Below are positions 13,952 through 21,307 of a stretch of DNA of 34,808 nucleotides, piece by piece. Origin of the DNA: Candidatus Thalassarchaeaceae archaeon (GTDB taxonomy: Archaea; Thermoplasmatota; Poseidoniia; Poseidoniales; Thalassarchaeaceae); the NCBI GenBank assembly GCA_029250665.1, contig JAQXEV010000021.1, positions 1 to 34,808 on the forward strand, written 5' to 3'. Each line of letters begins with the position of its first letter. Position 1 is the first letter of the stretch. The notes below the pieces were generated by a model. That model was not told the DNA's origin and searched no databases. It saw only the letters and a list, made by a program, of their open reading frames with translations. The position numbers and the translations under genes are program-made.

Positions 13952-14110
13952 TCTTCATCCAACTCACTGTGACCTCTTATTGTCATTATCCGATGCTGCA
14001 CAATCGTGAATGCTGTTGGAACCAAACCATCCGTTTGATTCAATAATCGACTTCCGGTCGCTCGGCCTATCTGACTTGAGCCTACGGCTCATTTGGAGAG
14101 CGTGATCTCG

Positions 14111-15271
14111 ATGAGACTTGGTGTGCTGAAGGAACCTGAAGGAGAAGACAGGGTCGCCATCGTGCCGAAATCCCTGCGCAAATTGGGCAAGACTGGCTTT
14201 GAGATTGTCATTGAATCCGGTGCTGGAATTGCTGCGAATCACCTCGACGCTGATTACGCGGAAAGCGGCGCCACAGTTGGCTCTCGCTCCGACGCGTTGA
14301 GTGCACCTCTGATCATCTCGATTCACCTTCCTGATGTGGCCGACCTCCACTCAGGACAGGTCGTTGCTTGTGTTGCCGATCCTTTTCGGAACCCTGAGAA
14401 GGTTCAGGCGTGCCTAGATGCGGGAATCACATTGCTTTCGATGGATATGATTCCTCGTCGTCTTTCGCGTGCTCAATCGATGGATGTAAATTCGAGTCAG
14501 GATAACTTAGCAGGATACAAGGCTGTCCTGCTCGGGGCTGCGGCAGTTCCGAAAAGTATCCCGATGATGACAACTTCAGCTGGTACGATTCGTCCTTCTA
14601 AGGTCGTAATCATGGGTAGTGGTGTCGCTGGCTTGCAAGCCATCGCTACCGCCAAGCGTCTCGGCGCAGTTGTCTATGCATCTGATGTACGCAAGTCTGC
14701 CGCCGAGCAGATTGAATCTGTCGGCGGTCGATTCATCGAAGTCGATGGGATGGATGATTTCGAAGATGAATCAGGATATGCTAAGCCTTTGACTGCTGAA
14801 TTCATTCAAAAGGTGAACGACACCGTTTGCGGTGTCGCGAGCGATGCTGACATCATTGTCACTACCGCTCGTATTTTCGGCCGACCTGCGCCAATCACTG
14901 TCCCAAGCAGTGCAGTGTCCGGATTCAAACCCGGAGCAGTTATTGTTGACATGAATGCAGATGTCGGTGGCAATTGTGAGGATACAGTGGCGGGAGAGAC
15001 CGTGGTTACTGCGAATGGAGTAACAATCATCGGTATCAAGAATCTTCCAGGAACTCTGGCTAATACCGCCTCATTCCTATATTCAAACAACCTCACTACA
15101 TTCATCACCTCAATTTTCAAAGAGGGCGAATTGGTGATTTCCGAAGATGATGATGTCTTGGTCGGCGCTCCTGAAGGCAATGATTTTCACGTTCCCGGTA
15201 TGGGTGGCGTTCTGATCTGCTCAGGGGGCAATATGCATCCTAAGCAGACTCGACTTGGAGGTGTTCTCTGA
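14111..15271 (+). CDS. pntAA: NAD(P) transhydrogenase alpha subunit part 1
   Basis: This 386-residue NAD(H)-binding domain I resembles alanine dehydrogenase. MRLGVLKEPEGEDRVAIVP opens the family pattern, and KVVIMGSGVAGLQAIATAKRLGA is the dinucleotide-binding loop. The mobile-loop region and the closing GMGGVLICSGGNMHPKQ are typical. I chose the ATG at 14111 over an upstream TTG at 14093. The stop TGA overlaps the next ATG (ATGA arrangement at 15268-15273), so pntAA, pntAB and pntB are translationally coupled. This three-gene split resembles that of Rhodospirillum rubrum. Confidence 0.93.
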   Translation: MRLGVLKEPEGEDRVAIVPKSLRKLGKTGFEIVIESGAGIAANHLDADYAESGATVGSRSDALSAPLIISIHLPDVADLHSGQVVACVADPFRNPEKVQACLDAGITLLSMDMIPRRLSRAQSMDVNSSQDNLAGYKAVLLGAAAVPKSIPMMTTSAGTIRPSKVVIMGSGVAGLQAIATAKRLGAVVYASDVRKSAAEQIESVGGRFIEVDGMDDFEDESGYAKPLTAEFIQKVNDTVCGVASDADIIVTTARIFGRPAPITVPSSAVSGFKPGAVIVDMNADVGGNCEDTVAGETVVTANGVTIIGIKNLPGTLANTASFLYSNNLTTFITSIFKEGELVISEDDDVLVGAPEGNDFHVPGMGGVLICSGGNMHPKQTRLGGVL

Positions 15272-15585
15272 TGGATCCAACAATGCTCCTCGGCTCAATC
15301 ACATTATTCGCGCTCTCGATTTTCCTTGGCTTCGAGCTCATCACCAAAGTGCCTGCAACTCTGCACACTCCTCTGATGAGTGGTGCTAACGCGATTTCAG
15401 GAATCAGTATCGTCGGCGCTCTTGTTGGCGCCAATGTTGTCTACGCGGGCGGCGACACTCTTGTCAGTGGAATTCTTGCGTTCATCGCTGTTGTCCTCGC
15501 AATGATCAATGTCGTTGGCGGTTTTGCGGTAACAAATCGTATGCTCAACATGATCGCTGGAAAGAAGCGAGGTGGTAATCGATGA
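15271..15585 (+). CDS. pntAB: NAD(P) transhydrogenase alpha subunit part 2 (membrane)
   Basis: This 104-residue protein with three membrane helices forms the N-terminal part of membrane domain II: LLGSITLFALSIFLGFELI, then the conserved ITKVPATLHTPLMSGANAISGI block, then GILAFIAVVLAMINVVGGF. It ends in a basic tail (GKKRGGNR). It works with PntB to couple hydride transfer to proton movement across the membrane. It overlaps pntAA by one base and pntB by four bases (ATGA). Confidence 0.94.
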   Translation: MDPTMLLGSITLFALSIFLGFELITKVPATLHTPLMSGANAISGISIVGALVGANVVYAGGDTLVSGILAFIAVVLAMINVVGGFAVTNRMLNMIAGKKRGGNR

Positions 15586-17009
15586 TCAATGATGAATGGG
15601 TTGCTATCGGCTATCTTTTCTCAGCCGCTCTCTTCATCTTCGGATTGAAGAATCTCTCACATCCTCGCACCGCGCCACGCGGCAATCAACTAGGTGCGAT
15701 GGGAATGCTTGTTGCAGTCCTGACAACTGTCCTTCAGATGGAACTAGGTGAAGGTATTGTTGGATGGGCACTCATAGGTGGTGGATTGCTTCTGGGTGGA
15801 GTCATCGGCTGGATTATGGCCGTCCGTGTCGAGATGACTGGAATGCCAGAACTCGTCGCTTTGTTCAACGGTTTTGGAGGAGCAGCTTCCGCTCTTGTTG
15901 CACTATCGGAATCCTGGAAGTACATCGAAAATGAAAGTCTCGAGCTCCCCACGGGTCTCGAAATTCAGGTCGTCGTAGTCGCTGCAGGACTCTCAGCGCT
16001 CGTCGGTTGGATGACTCTGACCGGTTCTCTTCTAGCGATGCTCAAACTCAAGGGGGGCGTCGAAATATTCGGCAAGTGGATTCGCGTACCTACCTGGGGT
16101 CCTGAATGGTTGAATCCAATCAAGGCCATCTTATTCTTGGGGACTCTGGTTCTAATCGTTCTAGCGATTGACGATCCTACGAATACCGATTACCTCTACG
16201 CGATAATCGGAATTTCATGCCTTCTCGGAATTCTACTCGTTCTGCCTATAGGCGGCGCTGATATGCCAGTCGTCGTCTCTCTGCTTAACTCACTGTCTGG
16301 AATCGCCGCGGCATTCACCGGATTTATCATCTCCAACAGCGTCCTCATCGTAGCCGGTTCACTAGTCGGCGCAAGTGGTCTAATCTTGACTTTCATCATG
16401 TGCAAGGCGATGAACCGCCAACTCAAGGATGTCTTGTTCAAGTCCTTCGGAGGTTCGGATAAGGAACAGGTCACACGCACTAAGGTTGGCAGCGATGCCG
16501 ACGAGGTTGCAATGATGATTGATGGCGCCCAGAAAATTATCATCGTCCCAGGATACGGAATGGCGGTAAGTCAGTGCCAACACCAAGTGAAGGAATTCGC
16601 CGATTTGGTCAGCGAGAAGTTTGACACTGAGGTGAAGTACGCAATCCACCCTGTGGCGGGAAGGATGCCAGGTCACATGAATGTCCTACTTGCTGAGGCA
16701 AATGTGCCTTACGAACAACTCATCGAGATGTCCGAAATCAATCCTGAAATGCCTGAGGCTGACATTGCACTTGTCATCGGTGCCAACGACACCTGCAACC
16801 CTGCAGCACGCACCGGCGAGGGCCCTCTCGCTGGAATGCCAATCATCGATGCCGACGCCGCTCGAACGGTTGTAATAATCAAGCGGAGCCTATCAGTCGG
16901 CTATGCTGGAGTTGACAATGATCTTTTCTTCATGGACAAGACGATGATGCTCTTTGGCGATGGCAAGAAAATGATGAATGAACTCAATTCGGCTGTCAAG
17001 GAGCTGTGA
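15582..17009 (+). CDS. pntB: NAD(P) transhydrogenase beta subunit
   Basis: This 475-residue protein combines about eight to nine membrane helices (residues 1 to about 275) with the NADP(H)-binding domain III. The latter shows IIIVPGYGMAVSQCQHQVKEF, the HPVAGRMPGHMNVLLAEA block and GANDTCNPAARTGEGPLAGMP, all hallmarks of PntB. The enzyme uses the ion gradient to reduce NADP+ with NADH. The start ATG overlaps the pntAB stop. A strong hairpin (17016-17034) follows the stop within 10 bp and probably ends the transcript. Confidence 0.95.
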   Translation: MINDEWVAIGYLFSAALFIFGLKNLSHPRTAPRGNQLGAMGMLVAVLTTVLQMELGEGIVGWALIGGGLLLGGVIGWIMAVRVEMTGMPELVALFNGFGGAASALVALSESWKYIENESLELPTGLEIQVVVVAAGLSALVGWMTLTGSLLAMLKLKGGVEIFGKWIRVPTWGPEWLNPIKAILFLGTLVLIVLAIDDPTNTDYLYAIIGISCLLGILLVLPIGGADMPVVVSLLNSLSGIAAAFTGFIISNSVLIVAGSLVGASGLILTFIMCKAMNRQLKDVLFKSFGGSDKEQVTRTKVGSDADEVAMMIDGAQKIIIVPGYGMAVSQCQHQVKEFADLVSEKFDTEVKYAIHPVAGRMPGHMNVLLAEANVPYEQLIEMSEINPEMPEADIALVIGANDTCNPAARTGEGPLAGMPIIDADAARTVVIIKRSLSVGYAGVDNDLFFMDKTMMLFGDGKKMMNELNSAVKEL

Positions 17010-17089: not shown

Positions 17090-18082
17090 ATGGGTCGTTC
17101 TCCAAGACTTCTGGTCGCATTGATTCTCATTGGCTTGCTGGCACTTCCAGCAATTGCGAATAGCCAGGGGCCGCCTCAATTCAATGCTGAGGATGACGAG
17201 ACAGCCAAGTATGGTTGCACCTGCCATGGTAACGCAGCACCCGGTGACCGTGCGGTTGTGATGATTTCCGGAGTGCCGGTGATGTATGATGCTGGTGCTG
17301 ATTACGAGATGATTATCACAGTCGCTGATTCGGTCACTCTAGCTGGTTCGGATGGTAATACGAAGGCTGGATTCCTCCTCACAGCGAATGGAATCGGCGG
17401 CTTCTCTTGGGATTCTGCTGAGGAGATTCGTGAGGCTGAGGACAATCCAGATGCAATTTCTCACGATCAAACAGGAAGTGGTGTTTGGACATTCACTTGG
17501 ACCGCACCCTCAAGCGACACCGGCACAGTCCACTTCAGCCTCGTCGGTAATTCGGTGGATTCGAGTGGGCTGCCCGACGAGGGGGATTATTGGAACATAC
17601 TAACGTTCTCAATCAATGCACCTGGAACGATTTCTGATGGTGATAACGATGCTGTGTTACAAACTCGCACCATCGCAGTCGGTGATTACGATACGCTCTT
17701 TGTCCTTGAAGAGAGTGAAGCAGAGAAGGAAGCAGAGCGGCAGAAGCATCTCTCGGAAACAATATTCGAAAAGGGTAATCTGTTCTACTGGACTTCACTA
17801 ACCGCTCTTCTTGTCGGAGCAGTCTACCAACGTGAAATCATGGAACGCCGATATGAAACCGGCCCTGAGTACCTTGCCATGGAACTCGCCTATCCTCAAG
17901 GAATTCGCAGAGGGCTAGTTGCCATCCTCGCCTTCTATCTGGCAGTTGATTGGACAGCCAATGCAGGACAAGGAGATTTCATTATTGGCTGTGCTTGGTT
18001 CATCGCGGCTTGGGCATCTTACGGTGTCTATCGAACAGTACGCTCGGCCCAAGCCGAGCCAACCGTTCACGATGTGATGTGA
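17090..18082 (+). CDS. Membrane-anchored reeler-like domain protein with CxCH motif
   Basis: This 330-residue protein starts with a signal peptide (LLVALILIGLLALPAIANS). A YGCTCHG motif (Cys43, Cys45, His46) follows, then a beta-rich domain with GFLLTANGIGGFSW and the VWTFTWTAPSSDTGTVHFSL block resembling reeler / choice-of-anchor-type domains, many of which carry a CxxCH haem-like motif at this position. A charged helix (ESEAEKEAERQKHLSE) leads to three C-terminal membrane helices. Here the motif is shortened to CxCH, so haem or metal binding is uncertain. The next gene starts one base after the stop, so the two are co-translated. Confidence 0.75.
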   Translation: MGRSPRLLVALILIGLLALPAIANSQGPPQFNAEDDETAKYGCTCHGNAAPGDRAVVMISGVPVMYDAGADYEMIITVADSVTLAGSDGNTKAGFLLTANGIGGFSWDSAEEIREAEDNPDAISHDQTGSGVWTFTWTAPSSDTGTVHFSLVGNSVDSSGLPDEGDYWNILTFSINAPGTISDGDNDAVLQTRTIAVGDYDTLFVLEESEAEKEAERQKHLSETIFEKGNLFYWTSLTALLVGAVYQREIMERRYETGPEYLAMELAYPQGIRRGLVAILAFYLAVDWTANAGQGDFIIGCAWFIAAWASYGVYRTVRSAQAEPTVHDVM

Positions 18083-18083
18083 G

Positions 18084-19202
18084 ATGGGATCAACTTCGAA
18101 CACCGACCGGCTTGTTCCGGTCGATGAGCACCTCGGTGCACTTCATTCAGTAATTCGTAGAGCGGCACTGGTTTTCCTTGCTTCCGCGGCTCTTGCATTA
18201 TTCTGGGTTGATGGAATCCTTCACGATTGGTCCCTCTCCCAATCTCCCAGCGGCGCGCTATCGATTTACGGGCCTTATGATTGGGTTGAGATGCGATTCA
18301 CTGCGATTTTCATCATCGCAGCAGTGGTCACTTTGCCTATCGCATCTCTCGACCTCCGAAACTTTGCGCGCCCCGGGCTCCTTCCTACAGAGCGAAGATG
18401 GCTTGATTCATTCCTCGTGATCAGCGCAATTTCACTACCACTGATTCTTCACACAGTTTGGTTCAAAATGATTCCACAATACATCGAAGCTGGAATTCAG
18501 TTTGATTCGATAGCAGGCGTCTCCGCTCACTTCGATGCAGCCGAAATCTTCGCCCTCGCGAGTGGTCTGTCTTGGATTTTGGTCCTCGCTTTCATGACTA
18601 CGCTATTTCTCTCCCTCTCACGACTTTTTGGTTTGGTCGAGGAAGGTCGGAGCAGATTCAGGAATCGAGCCCTCGCAATCTGCGGTGGAATGCTGATTCT
18701 TACTCTACCGGAGGTTTTCGAAGGAGTCCGCGTAATGACTGCGATTCTAGTAATATTCCTCGCCGAATCGATATCTAGAACCACCCCCTCTGGCCCACTC
18801 GGCCCCCGTAGACCAAAGGTGATGTCCATGGTTGACTCTCAAGGCATCCCACAACGCCCGGCTCTTCTCGCTTGCTCCTGCGAAGGCGCCTGCCCTAGTG
18901 TGGAAACCGCATGGATGGCAACAGACTCCTTACCCCTCCTGAACGCAACAGCCCTTTGCCTCGAAGAAGACGAGCAACAAGCTGTATTCGAGTTGGCACG
19001 AAGCAGTGGCATCACCCATCTGACAATAACCGGTTGCGACTCAACTCCGATTCCAGCATCTTTGAAGGCAAATTTAACCGCATCAGGCACTCAATTGGAT
19101 GGATTGAGTTGGCTCGACGACGAGCGGTCAACTGATACCGCTTGGAGAAAACAAGCCCTCCAATTACTTTCTTCGCGTTTTTCACCGGCAGGCGATGAAT
19201 GA
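18084..19202 (+). CDS. tatC: TatC-like translocase subunit fused to a cysteine-rich C-terminal domain
   Basis: Residues 15-235 align by eye with TatC, the receptor subunit of the twin-arginine protein export system. There is an N-terminal HLGALHSVIRRA helix, then YDWVEMRFTAIFIIAAVVTLP leading into FARPGLLPTERRW, where Glu103 matches the conserved TatC glutamate, and LILTLPEVFEGV matches the late TPPDVF block. The N-terminal HLxELR signature is degenerate (Ala and His replace Glu and Arg). Residues about 255-372 form an additional soluble domain with Cys264, Cys266, Cys270, Cys292 and Cys318. Its pattern (CxCEGxC, ALCLEEDEQQ, HLTITGCDSTP) resembles the N-terminal module of HdrA. The TatC part is fairly secure; the domain assignment is inference. 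It is co-translated with the upstream CxCH protein. Confidence 0.75.
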   Translation: MGSTSNTDRLVPVDEHLGALHSVIRRAALVFLASAALALFWVDGILHDWSLSQSPSGALSIYGPYDWVEMRFTAIFIIAAVVTLPIASLDLRNFARPGLLPTERRWLDSFLVISAISLPLILHTVWFKMIPQYIEAGIQFDSIAGVSAHFDAAEIFALASGLSWILVLAFMTTLFLSLSRLFGLVEEGRSRFRNRALAICGGMLILTLPEVFEGVRVMTAILVIFLAESISRTTPSGPLGPRRPKVMSMVDSQGIPQRPALLACSCEGACPSVETAWMATDSLPLLNATALCLEEDEQQAVFELARSSGITHLTITGCDSTPIPASLKANLTASGTQLDGLSWLDDERSTDTAWRKQALQLLSSRFSPAGDE

Positions 19203-19273: not shown

Positions 19274-21307
19274 ATGAGAGTACACAGAGCGGTCATTGCG
19301 ACTATGCTTCTCGTGAGCGCTCTCTTCGTCCATATGAATGGTGAACTCGTAGATGATTGGGCCTCCAAACAAGTGCCAAGGGAGCAAACTGAACCCTTGT
19401 CGCTACTTGGCATACAAGCCAACGAAGAGTGGCTTGTTCTGCAAGTTGAATTTCCAAATAGTCCCTATTCAGAAAATCGTGCTAGAAGTCTACTGATGGG
19501 GGCTGGATCAGCCGAGGAATACATCGAGGAGATGACAGCAGGCTCATCCACCCTCTCAGCGACTCTATTCGACGAAGTCTGGGAAGCACCTCAAGGCGTC
19601 AAGCGTTGGGGCGAGGATGTCGATGGCGAACGTGACCACGGAGCCGACGGAAATGGAGCAGAGACACTTCTCAAAGAAGTCGCCACTGACATCCTTGTTG
19701 ACCAAGATTTGAGTCGTTGGGATCTCAACAATGACGGCGTAGTAGATCGAATTCTAATATTGCATTCCTCAGAACCACAGGAAAAAGGAGGTGGGACTAA
19801 TTCACTCTGGAGTCACTTCACTGGAATGCAGGAACCATTGGTTATCGGCGACTGGTCCATTGAACACTTCACAGTCGCTTCAGTCAATTCCGGTCTGGGG
19901 ACAATAGTCCACGAAATGCTCCATCAGATGGGTGCTCTCGACCTCTACGATGTCCACAGCGAATTGCCAACCAGCAATTGGAATGGCATTGGAGATTGGG
20001 GCTTGATGGCGAGTGGTAATTGGAATGGAAATGGAGCCATCCCTTCATTGCCTTCCTCGTCTACTCTGGACTTAATTGGAGTGCAAAGAAGCATTACTGT
20101 CGAACCTGATATTGATTCAACTCACTCTATTTCAGGAATCAGCGAAGGTGGTTCCTCGATAGAGGTTGAGATAGGTCCGAATGAGTGGATTCGCTTTACT
20201 CTACGTTCGGACGCCGGCTTTGACTCAGCCCTCCCCGGCCACGGCGTCCTCGTTGAACAACAAGATCGCAACAACGGAGACGAGGCTGAGAACCTCGTCA
20301 ATACAGATCCCGATTCGGCATGGTTACGGATAATTGAGGCAGATGGAGATGCTGCTCTTGAGAGAGGAAGAGACACTGGGGCAGCAGAAGATGTCTTCAC
20401 CGAAGGCGGCCAATTAGGTGCAACTGGAATGCAAATCCGCGACAGTCGCGGGCGTCTCGTCCCGTGGACAGCAAACATAGACTCACTTACATCCGGCCAA
20501 GCAATAATTTCCTTTGATTTCCCTGACCAATCCTCATCTGTGGATATTTTGCCACCGAGAGGTCCACTCGAGGTTCTCGGCGCAGAGACAATCTTCGCCA
20601 GCATCAGTGCTGACCAAGCCTGTAATTTACTGGTTGATGTACACTCTTCAGCTTCATCAGCCGAAAACGGTCCAAGGGTTGTGGAGGTCCCTGAAGGAAT
20701 TTCCACTTTCGAGTTATTGCCCGCCAGTGGGATAGAAGGTCCGGCTGGTTATTTGCGAGGCTCAGTCGGTTGCGAAGGTGAAAGACAATTGGAAATCGAC
20801 CTCGATTGGTATTCAGTTGGACACAGAATCGAAAGCGAACATCTCTCTGAGATTATTGCGTGGGATGAAGCATCTCGAATCTCCCTCATAACCTCGTGTT
20901 CCGGAAGCGCATCTCGGACATATTCGATAGCCATTGAAGGTGCACTTTCTAGAATCGCTTCCGTCCGTAATCAAGGAGAGTTCGATGCCTGTCCAATTAT
21001 CGAACTAGACATCGAACCTGCAGGTCTTTTGACACCAGGAATGGTAGCAGAAGGAGAATTAGTTCTCGTCGATACTTTTGGTCTTGAACAGCGTGTTGCT
21101 GTGACTTTGACTGCTCAATCCTCATTCAATGGCGATAGCCCTCTAAATTGGTTAGTTCAACCAAGTAATGCTATCATGATGATTATGTTACTTCTTGCGA
21201 TATCGGTTGTAACCGGAGGGACCACACGTATTCCGGCTTCCCCTCCATCTCCTCCTCAAACCCTTTCAGAGTCTGAACCGGCTGAGCGAGACTTCAGCGC
21301 CGATTAG
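19274..21307 (+). CDS. Secreted M6-family metalloprotease, membrane anchored
   Basis: This 677-residue protein has an N-terminal signal peptide (AVIATMLLVSALFVHMNGE), an M6 (immune inhibitor A-like) peptidase domain and a C-terminal membrane helix (AIMMIMLLLAISVVTGG) with a short cytoplasmic tail. The zinc site is HEMLHQMGALD (His213, Glu214, His217, Asp223), preceded by the M6 calcium-type motif WDLNNDGVVDRILI and followed by the Met-turn GLMASG. The remaining region is beta-rich with three to four cysteines. It should degrade extracellular protein at the cell surface, in line with a heterotrophic life. Its last 14 bp overlap endA on the opposite strand. Confidence 0.9.
   Translation: MRVHRAVIATMLLVSALFVHMNGELVDDWASKQVPREQTEPLSLLGIQANEEWLVLQVEFPNSPYSENRARSLLMGAGSAEEYIEEMTAGSSTLSATLFDEVWEAPQGVKRWGEDVDGERDHGADGNGAETLLKEVATDILVDQDLSRWDLNNDGVVDRILILHSSEPQEKGGGTNSLWSHFTGMQEPLVIGDWSIEHFTVASVNSGLGTIVHEMLHQMGALDLYDVHSELPTSNWNGIGDWGLMASGNWNGNGAIPSLPSSSTLDLIGVQRSITVEPDIDSTHSISGISEGGSSIEVEIGPNEWIRFTLRSDAGFDSALPGHGVLVEQQDRNNGDEAENLVNTDPDSAWLRIIEADGDAALERGRDTGAAEDVFTEGGQLGATGMQIRDSRGRLVPWTANIDSLTSGQAIISFDFPDQSSSVDILPPRGPLEVLGAETIFASISADQACNLLVDVHSSASSAENGPRVVEVPEGISTFELLPASGIEGPAGYLRGSVGCEGERQLEIDLDWYSVGHRIESEHLSEIIAWDEASRISLITSCSGSASRTYSIAIEGALSRIASVRNQGEFDACPIIELDIEPAGLLTPGMVAEGELVLVDTFGLEQRVAVTLTAQSSFNGDSPLNWLVQPSNAIMMIMLLLAISVVTGGTTRIPASPPSPPQTLSESEPAERDFSAD

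Follow-up and report, generated by a model that had tools for sequence, protein, structure and literature searches.

The tatC2 gene of a marine archaeon of the order Poseidoniales encodes a divergent TatC protein followed by a domain homologous to the N-terminal domain of HdrA, with four invariant cysteines. It belongs to a pair of TatC paralogues that have lost complementary sets of functional residues: TatC2 keeps those that bind the twin arginines, and TatC1 keeps those of the TatA/TatB docking site. The reading proposed here, at a probability of roughly 0.6, gives TatC2 the part of signal-peptide receptor and TatC1 that of TatA-docking half; the domain of HdrA type would be an iron-sulfur or thiol-switch module placed beside the receptor. 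The window analysed, a stretch of 34,808 nucleotides, lies on contig 11 of a genome of 1.48 Mb that is 91% complete. Its named relatives, Thalassarchaeum and the Thalassarchaeaceae, are Marine Group IIb of the order Poseidoniales. In a targeted, incomplete search of the literature, no account of a Tat system in Poseidoniales turned up, nor, among the papers listed, any TatC-HdrA fusion.

The TatC core

The gene and the landmarks of its membrane part are as follows.

18084..19202, + strand: tatC2 gene (372 aa, ATG start), divergent TatC with an HdrA-N-like four-cysteine domain
18084..18788, + strand: TatC core, residues 1-235 (Pfam PF00902, AlphaFold2, Foldseek TatC matches)
18129..18146, + strand: N-terminal HLxELR signal-peptide-binding motif, degenerate as HLGALH, residues 16-21 (alignment to E. 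coli TatC)
18363..18392, + strand: first cytoplasmic loop, F94-ARPGLLPT-E103, the retained twin-arginine recognition site (F94 and E103 in 19/19 TatC2)
18591..18602, + strand: degenerate TM4 motif FMTT, residues 170-173, replacing F-E/Q-x-P (alignment)
18705..18716, + strand: degenerate TM5-6 site LPEV, residues 208-211, replacing T/S-P-P-D (polar-cluster T208 lost)

Residues 15-201 score 52.5 bits with the Pfam TatC model PF00902 (cut-off 25.1; E 7.3e-14). Scores for the NCBIfam TatC equivalogs fall below their cut-offs (TIGR00945, 31.5 vs 132.7; TIGR01912, 29.0 vs 192.6). The full-length AlphaFold2 model, computed from an alignment of 40 sequences, has a mean pLDDT of 86.9 and consists of six long TatC-type helices (residues 13-53, 64-95, 101-140, 152-181, 191-207 and 216-231) and an alpha/beta domain. 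When this model was compared with the PDB by Foldseek, TatC structures came out on top (4hts, 9e01, 4b4a) and HdrA second (5odc, probability 1.00). An earlier note, made from the DNA letters, had read residues 1-235 as TatC; the profile match, the predicted topology and the structure search all agree with it.

The core shares with E. coli TatC (b3839; PF00902) the six-helix fold and the residues F94, L99 and E103, and most orthologues share E15 as well. The first cytoplasmic loop reads F94-x-x-P-G-L-x-x-x-E103, with F94 and E103 at the same numbers as in E. coli, and the glutamate that the note had singled out in this loop is the conserved one. TatC2 differs from the E. coli protein in the absence of E170 and P172 of TM4 and of T208 of the polar cluster, in its extra C-terminal domain, and in presumably needing a partner paralogue. 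The HLxELR motif is degenerate in the window, as had been noticed, with Ala at the position of E15, although the sampled orthologues mostly have E there. The "PEVF block", which had been taken as a mark of TatC, fared differently: it aligns to the canonical TPPDVF yet is unconserved, a degenerate position rather than a hallmark.

Two TatC proteins with complementary losses

At least two TatC loci are present in 91 of 97 Poseidoniales genomes, and the other Thermoplasmatota with TatC have one locus per genome in nearly all cases. The tatC1 and tatC2 genes are not neighbours. The TatC1 of the same genome (G000 contig 27:3428-3772, L001:1057-1899) is without the signal-peptide loop and keeps FQVP and SPPD. 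In a tree of 70 TatC sequences, TatC2 groups with copy b of MGIII (support 100/97) and TatC1 with MGIII copy a (96/88); the two groups are joined (99/93) and stand apart from the single TatCs. The two paralogues thus trace back to a single duplication at the base of Poseidoniia.

Alignment to E. coli TatC of 24 single TatC, 19 TatC2 and 22 TatC1 sequences showed which residues each paralogue has given up. F94 and E103 are present in 24/24 single TatC (one with Tyr at 94) and 19/19 TatC2, and in 0/22 TatC1. E15 is found in 22/24 single TatC and 15/19 TatC2 and is deleted in 22/22 TatC1. The docking residues show the reverse: E/Q170 with P172, and likewise T/S208, occur in 24/24 single TatC and 22/22 TatC1 but in 0/19 TatC2. 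The MGIII copy b is intermediate, with P172 and T208 kept. In E. coli TatC, E15, F94 and E103 contact the twin arginines, T208 lies in the polar cluster that binds TatB, and TatA uses the same region (PMC13323110). The complementary losses, set against these residue roles, point to TatC2 as the signal-peptide receptor and TatC1 as the TatA-docking half, the two acting together. From the motif complementarity and the co-occurrence of the two proteins we infer a mixed TatC1-TatC2 complex; the separate location of their genes counts against it.

The multiple TatC isoforms of bacteria, as far as is known, each retain a full motif set. They resemble the Poseidoniales pair in that there is more than one TatC per genome, as with Bacillus TatCd/TatCy, and at least two tatC loci are present in about 5% of bacterial species surveyed; a split of signal-peptide and TatA-docking motifs like that in Poseidoniales is not described in the available part of that survey (PMC3827258). 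Extra folded modules also occur in the TatC proteins of Myxococcus xanthus and Nitratifractor salsuginis, as large inserts in periplasmic loops (PMC13323110), whereas the module of TatC2 is a C-terminal, cytoplasmic cysteine domain.

The C-terminal domain and its cysteines

18819..19199, + strand: cytoplasmic C-terminal domain, residues 246-372, HdrA N-terminal domain homologue (AlphaFold2, Foldseek, hhalign)
18873..18875, + strand: Cys264 codon, invariant putative ligand
18879..18881, + strand: Cys266 codon, invariant putative ligand
18891..18893, + strand: Cys270 codon, unconserved across the order (42/45 in family 1, 5/20 in family 2)
18957..18959, + strand: Cys292 codon, invariant putative ligand
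19035..19037, + strand: Cys318 codon, invariant putative ligand, GC.....P motif

The soluble domain that the note had placed behind the last membrane helix, at about 115 residues, is indeed there; it begins near residue 246 and has about 120 residues. AlphaFold2 predicts strands at residues 259-264, 285-288, 312-315 and 337-340. As read from this predicted secondary structure, C264/C266, C292 and C318 lie at or just past the ends of the first three strands, and the strand-end edge of such an alpha/beta fold is the usual place where sites form. Family 1 keeps all four of these cysteines in 45/45 sequences, counting one that reads X at C318 because of ambiguous bases, and family 2 in 20/20. Five cysteines had been pointed out at the start, all at their correct positions; conservation holds for four of them and fails for C270. 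The two most degenerate C-terminal domains (L188:1566-2558 and L189:2449-3519) keep all four cysteines and little else.

Modelled alone, the domain has an AlphaFold2 pLDDT of 86.4, and Foldseek matches it to HdrA chains (5odi, 8rvy, 5odc, 5odh, 8rvu) with probabilities of 0.97-1.00 and TM-scores of 0.53-0.58. In the same search periplasmic binding proteins and dehydroquinases give E-values similar to those of HdrA, so the fold alone would not decide. A Pfam search with 26 members and a comparison of the profile with PDB sequences gave no significant match for the C-terminal domain. A profile of 30 diverse domains was searched blind, in six frames, over 390 genomes of the phylum. Its matches outside Poseidoniales number 16; they are weak, with E from 5e-5 to 1e-3, and all lie within large open reading frames. 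Every one has the sequence pattern of HdrA_N, and HdrA-type NCBIfam models match each of the five that were run against them.

Profile-profile comparison by hhalign gave a probability of 97.6 and a score of 66.9 for the domain profile against HdrA_N, while 100 column-shuffled HdrA controls reached at most 3.5 and 18.3. With every cysteine masked the probability was still 94.0 and the score 44.2. This first HdrA set had been picked by the domain profile itself, which introduces a selection bias; a second, independent set was drawn by a search with an HdrA family model. Against this set the probability was 90.1 and the score 38.6, with 100 shuffles at or below 6.7 and 20.1. The score thus drops from 66.9 to 38.6 once the bias is removed, yet it stays clear of the shuffles. 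The four cysteines, in the arrangement CxC...C...(A/G)C, do not vary among the TatC2 domains or within the HdrA set, and hhalign aligns those of the one with those of the other. FlpD/MvhD (PF02662), which is likewise small and rich in cysteines, has a GC motif and transfers electrons in Hdr complexes, was considered as the closest relative and rejected, with an hhalign probability of only 2.8; a search of 15 Poseidoniales genomes found no FlpD. The significant HdrA_N match beside the FlpD/MvhD value makes the homology specific to HdrA_N. The C-terminal domain is therefore homologous to the HdrA N-terminal domain, and the HdrA-N-like character first suspected from its cysteine pattern is upheld.

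The likeness to the HdrA N-terminal domain (5odc, 8rvy; NF041778, NF040770) extends to the fold, the CxC...C...(A/G)C.P-type pattern, the order of secondary structure elements and the profile match. Compared with whole HdrA, only the N-terminal module is present; the FAD/thioredoxin-reductase and ferredoxin domains are absent, and the module is placed C-terminally on a membrane translocase. The domain in HdrA holds an iron-sulfur cluster, one ligand of which, Cys197, is supplied by the partner HdrA subunit (PMC9012536). That ligand is absent from TatC2, which would count against a cluster bound in the same way.

Distribution, gain and loss of the domain

The fusion had been worth looking for in other Poseidoniales, and it proved widespread: a profile search detects the domain in 206 of 319 genomes and 19 of 22 genera. 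The domain is not a chance product, since the E-values go down to 1e-49 and the matching frames are long and open wherever the contig leaves room. The MGIII TatC copies have frames of 232-240 aa, too short to include it; most simply, then, the domain would have been gained in the ancestor of Poseidoniales. One contig of a Gemmatimonadetes bin (L093, PBPC01000068.1) also carries a TatC2 of Marine Group II type and is probably mis-binned.

The domain was also lost repeatedly, and some genera of the order are without it. Within the Thalassarchaeaceae TatC2 is present in 129 of 148 genomes and the domain in 71; somewhat under half of the TatC2-bearing genomes lack it. The order-wide profile search found no stand-alone copy in genomes with a short TatC2, and no domain was found in the DNA downstream of short tatC2 genes. 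In two loci, scraps of the end of the lost domain remain past the new stop (DSEYSDNNI in L061 and KLNSLKDS in L062, by eye against L041), so the losses there are recent deletions. Because many Thalassarchaeaceae genomes without the domain keep TatC2 and the Rieske protein described below, the domain is not needed for basic export, and its repeated loss suggests a regulatory or cargo-specific role rather than an essential one.

Gene neighbourhood and likely substrate

14093..17009, + strand: pntA, small pnt subunit and pntB (NAD(P) transhydrogenase), upstream of tatC2 (Pfam, synteny)
17090..18082, + strand: choice-of-anchor V / Reeler-like exported membrane protein with a conserved GCxCH, 1 base upstream of tatC2 (NCBIfam NF041895, 71.6 bits)
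19274..21307, + strand: M6-type metallopeptidase (Pfam PF05547), the downstream neighbour in nearly all loci

The gene of the GCxCH protein lies directly upstream of tatC2 on the same strand in 61/61 loci examined, with a spacing that is typically -4 to +39 bases. The pntA-pnt-pntB genes lie upstream in nearly all loci where the contig reaches far enough. The GCxCH motif falls short of the heme motif CxxCH by one residue, and metal or heme binding is possible. The protein was considered as a consistent Tat substrate and rejected, as it has no conserved RR. A relative of it is encoded upstream of Rieske-cytochrome b genes in 3/3 loci read (L347:140-979, L348:3-971, L350:156-980), which suggests a link between the GCxCH family and the bc-type complex.

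The likely substrate is an order-wide Rieske protein. Its twin-arginine motif, (D/N)RRxF(L/M/I)(R/K), is present in 39/39 copies read, and its gene in 113 of 116 genomes. Rieske is an iron-sulfur protein that needs to fold before export. It is a plausible main Tat cargo. In Shewanella, the poor aerobic growth of tat mutants is reported to come mostly from mislocalisation of the Rieske protein PetA (PMC3623810). The Poseidoniales protein (L374:2523-3377 and homologues), reached through weak matches to the family model TIGR01409, has little or no Pfam Rieske score and carries CTHLCC/CPHLCC and CICHSS boxes. Two longer Pfam Rieske matches were rejected as Tat substrates, being ring-hydroxylase-like and without a Tat signal. 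A crude count of RR motifs in 800 kb of one genome gave no excess over KK/RK/KR (7 vs 10). The only TIGR01409 match over the cut-off in 20 genomes is a substrate-binding-type protein of genome G032 (L345:487-1593) with a strong Tat signal, KRRDFLKKAG, possibly a contamination.

Proposed mechanism and alternatives

TatC2 would be the cargo-recognition half of a subfunctionalised TatC pair, with the twin-arginine-binding residues retained. TatC1, with its recognition residues lost and its TM4 motif and TM5-6 docking site kept, would recruit TatA, and translocation would require a mixed TatC1-TatC2-TatA complex. The C-terminus of TatC is cytoplasmic, which should place the added HdrA-N-type domain on that side of the membrane, close to the signal peptide when it is bound. 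The most likely occupant of the four invariant cysteines is an iron-sulfur cluster, as HdrA has in this domain; they might instead hold zinc or work as a thiol/disulfide switch. The receptor would most likely respond to the state of this site. It could, for instance, give preference to cargo that is already folded and cluster-loaded, like the Rieske protein of the bc-type complex; alternatively, it could tune export to the cytoplasmic redox or iron state. A cluster on the TatC2 domain and a gating of export are speculative, and the full proposal, in which a two-part translocase gates the export of iron-sulfur cargo (Rieske) by redox or cluster status through the HdrA-derived domain, is tentative. 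The Ala at the E15 position of the window copy itself is a point against the receptor assignment.

The same domain might be a docking or proofreading platform for the cytoplasmic iron-sulfur assembly machinery or the Rieske apoprotein, its cysteines holding a structural zinc or a transient cluster with no redox sensing. The cytoplasmic position of the domain, the likelihood that the main substrate is an iron-sulfur protein and the dispensability of the domain in some lineages would all suit such a platform. It is nevertheless rather unlikely, given that the homology is to an electron-transfer iron-sulfur domain and that the neighbouring pntAB genes and GCxCH protein carry a redox theme. These neighbours lend themselves to another idea, that TatC2 has left Tat export altogether and anchors the HdrA-type domain in the membrane for electron transfer with the GCxCH protein and PntAB: TatC2 always adjoins the former, and on contigs that extend far enough pntAB belongs to the same row of genes; TatC2 has also lost its TM4 motif and the polar-cluster residue for TatA/TatB. 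Against an anchor stand the twin-arginine-contacting F94 and E103, kept in every TatC2 compared while every TatC1 lost both; the conserved RR-bearing Rieske protein of the order must be recognised by something, and domain-less TatC2 is still retained in several genera. This makes the anchor improbable.

That the domain is an ordinary alpha/beta fold with incidental cysteines and a chance resemblance to HdrA_N is close to refuted. The lack of a significant match in the Pfam and sequence-only PDB searches and the similar Foldseek scores of other alpha/beta folds would speak for it. Against it are the profile-profile scores, which with either HdrA set far exceed those of 100 shuffles and which stay high when the cysteines are masked, the blind recovery of HdrA from six-frame genomes, and the conservation of the cysteines across the order. 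The receptor with an adjoining cysteine module remains the preferred reading.

Significance

In the Tat systems studied so far, to our knowledge, the signal-peptide site and the docking site for TatA/TatB sit together on one TatC. In Poseidoniales evolution appears to have split these sites between two proteins, and this separation provides a natural test of the role of each site and of the cooperation of TatC subunits in the core complex. A cysteine domain of HdrA lineage on the receptor would tie the export of folded cofactor proteins to the redox or iron-sulfur state, a candidate form of quality control in the translocase. The hosts, Marine Group II, are abundant and uncultured archaea of the ocean; if the proposal is true, their TatC2 would be a redox-gated export receptor.
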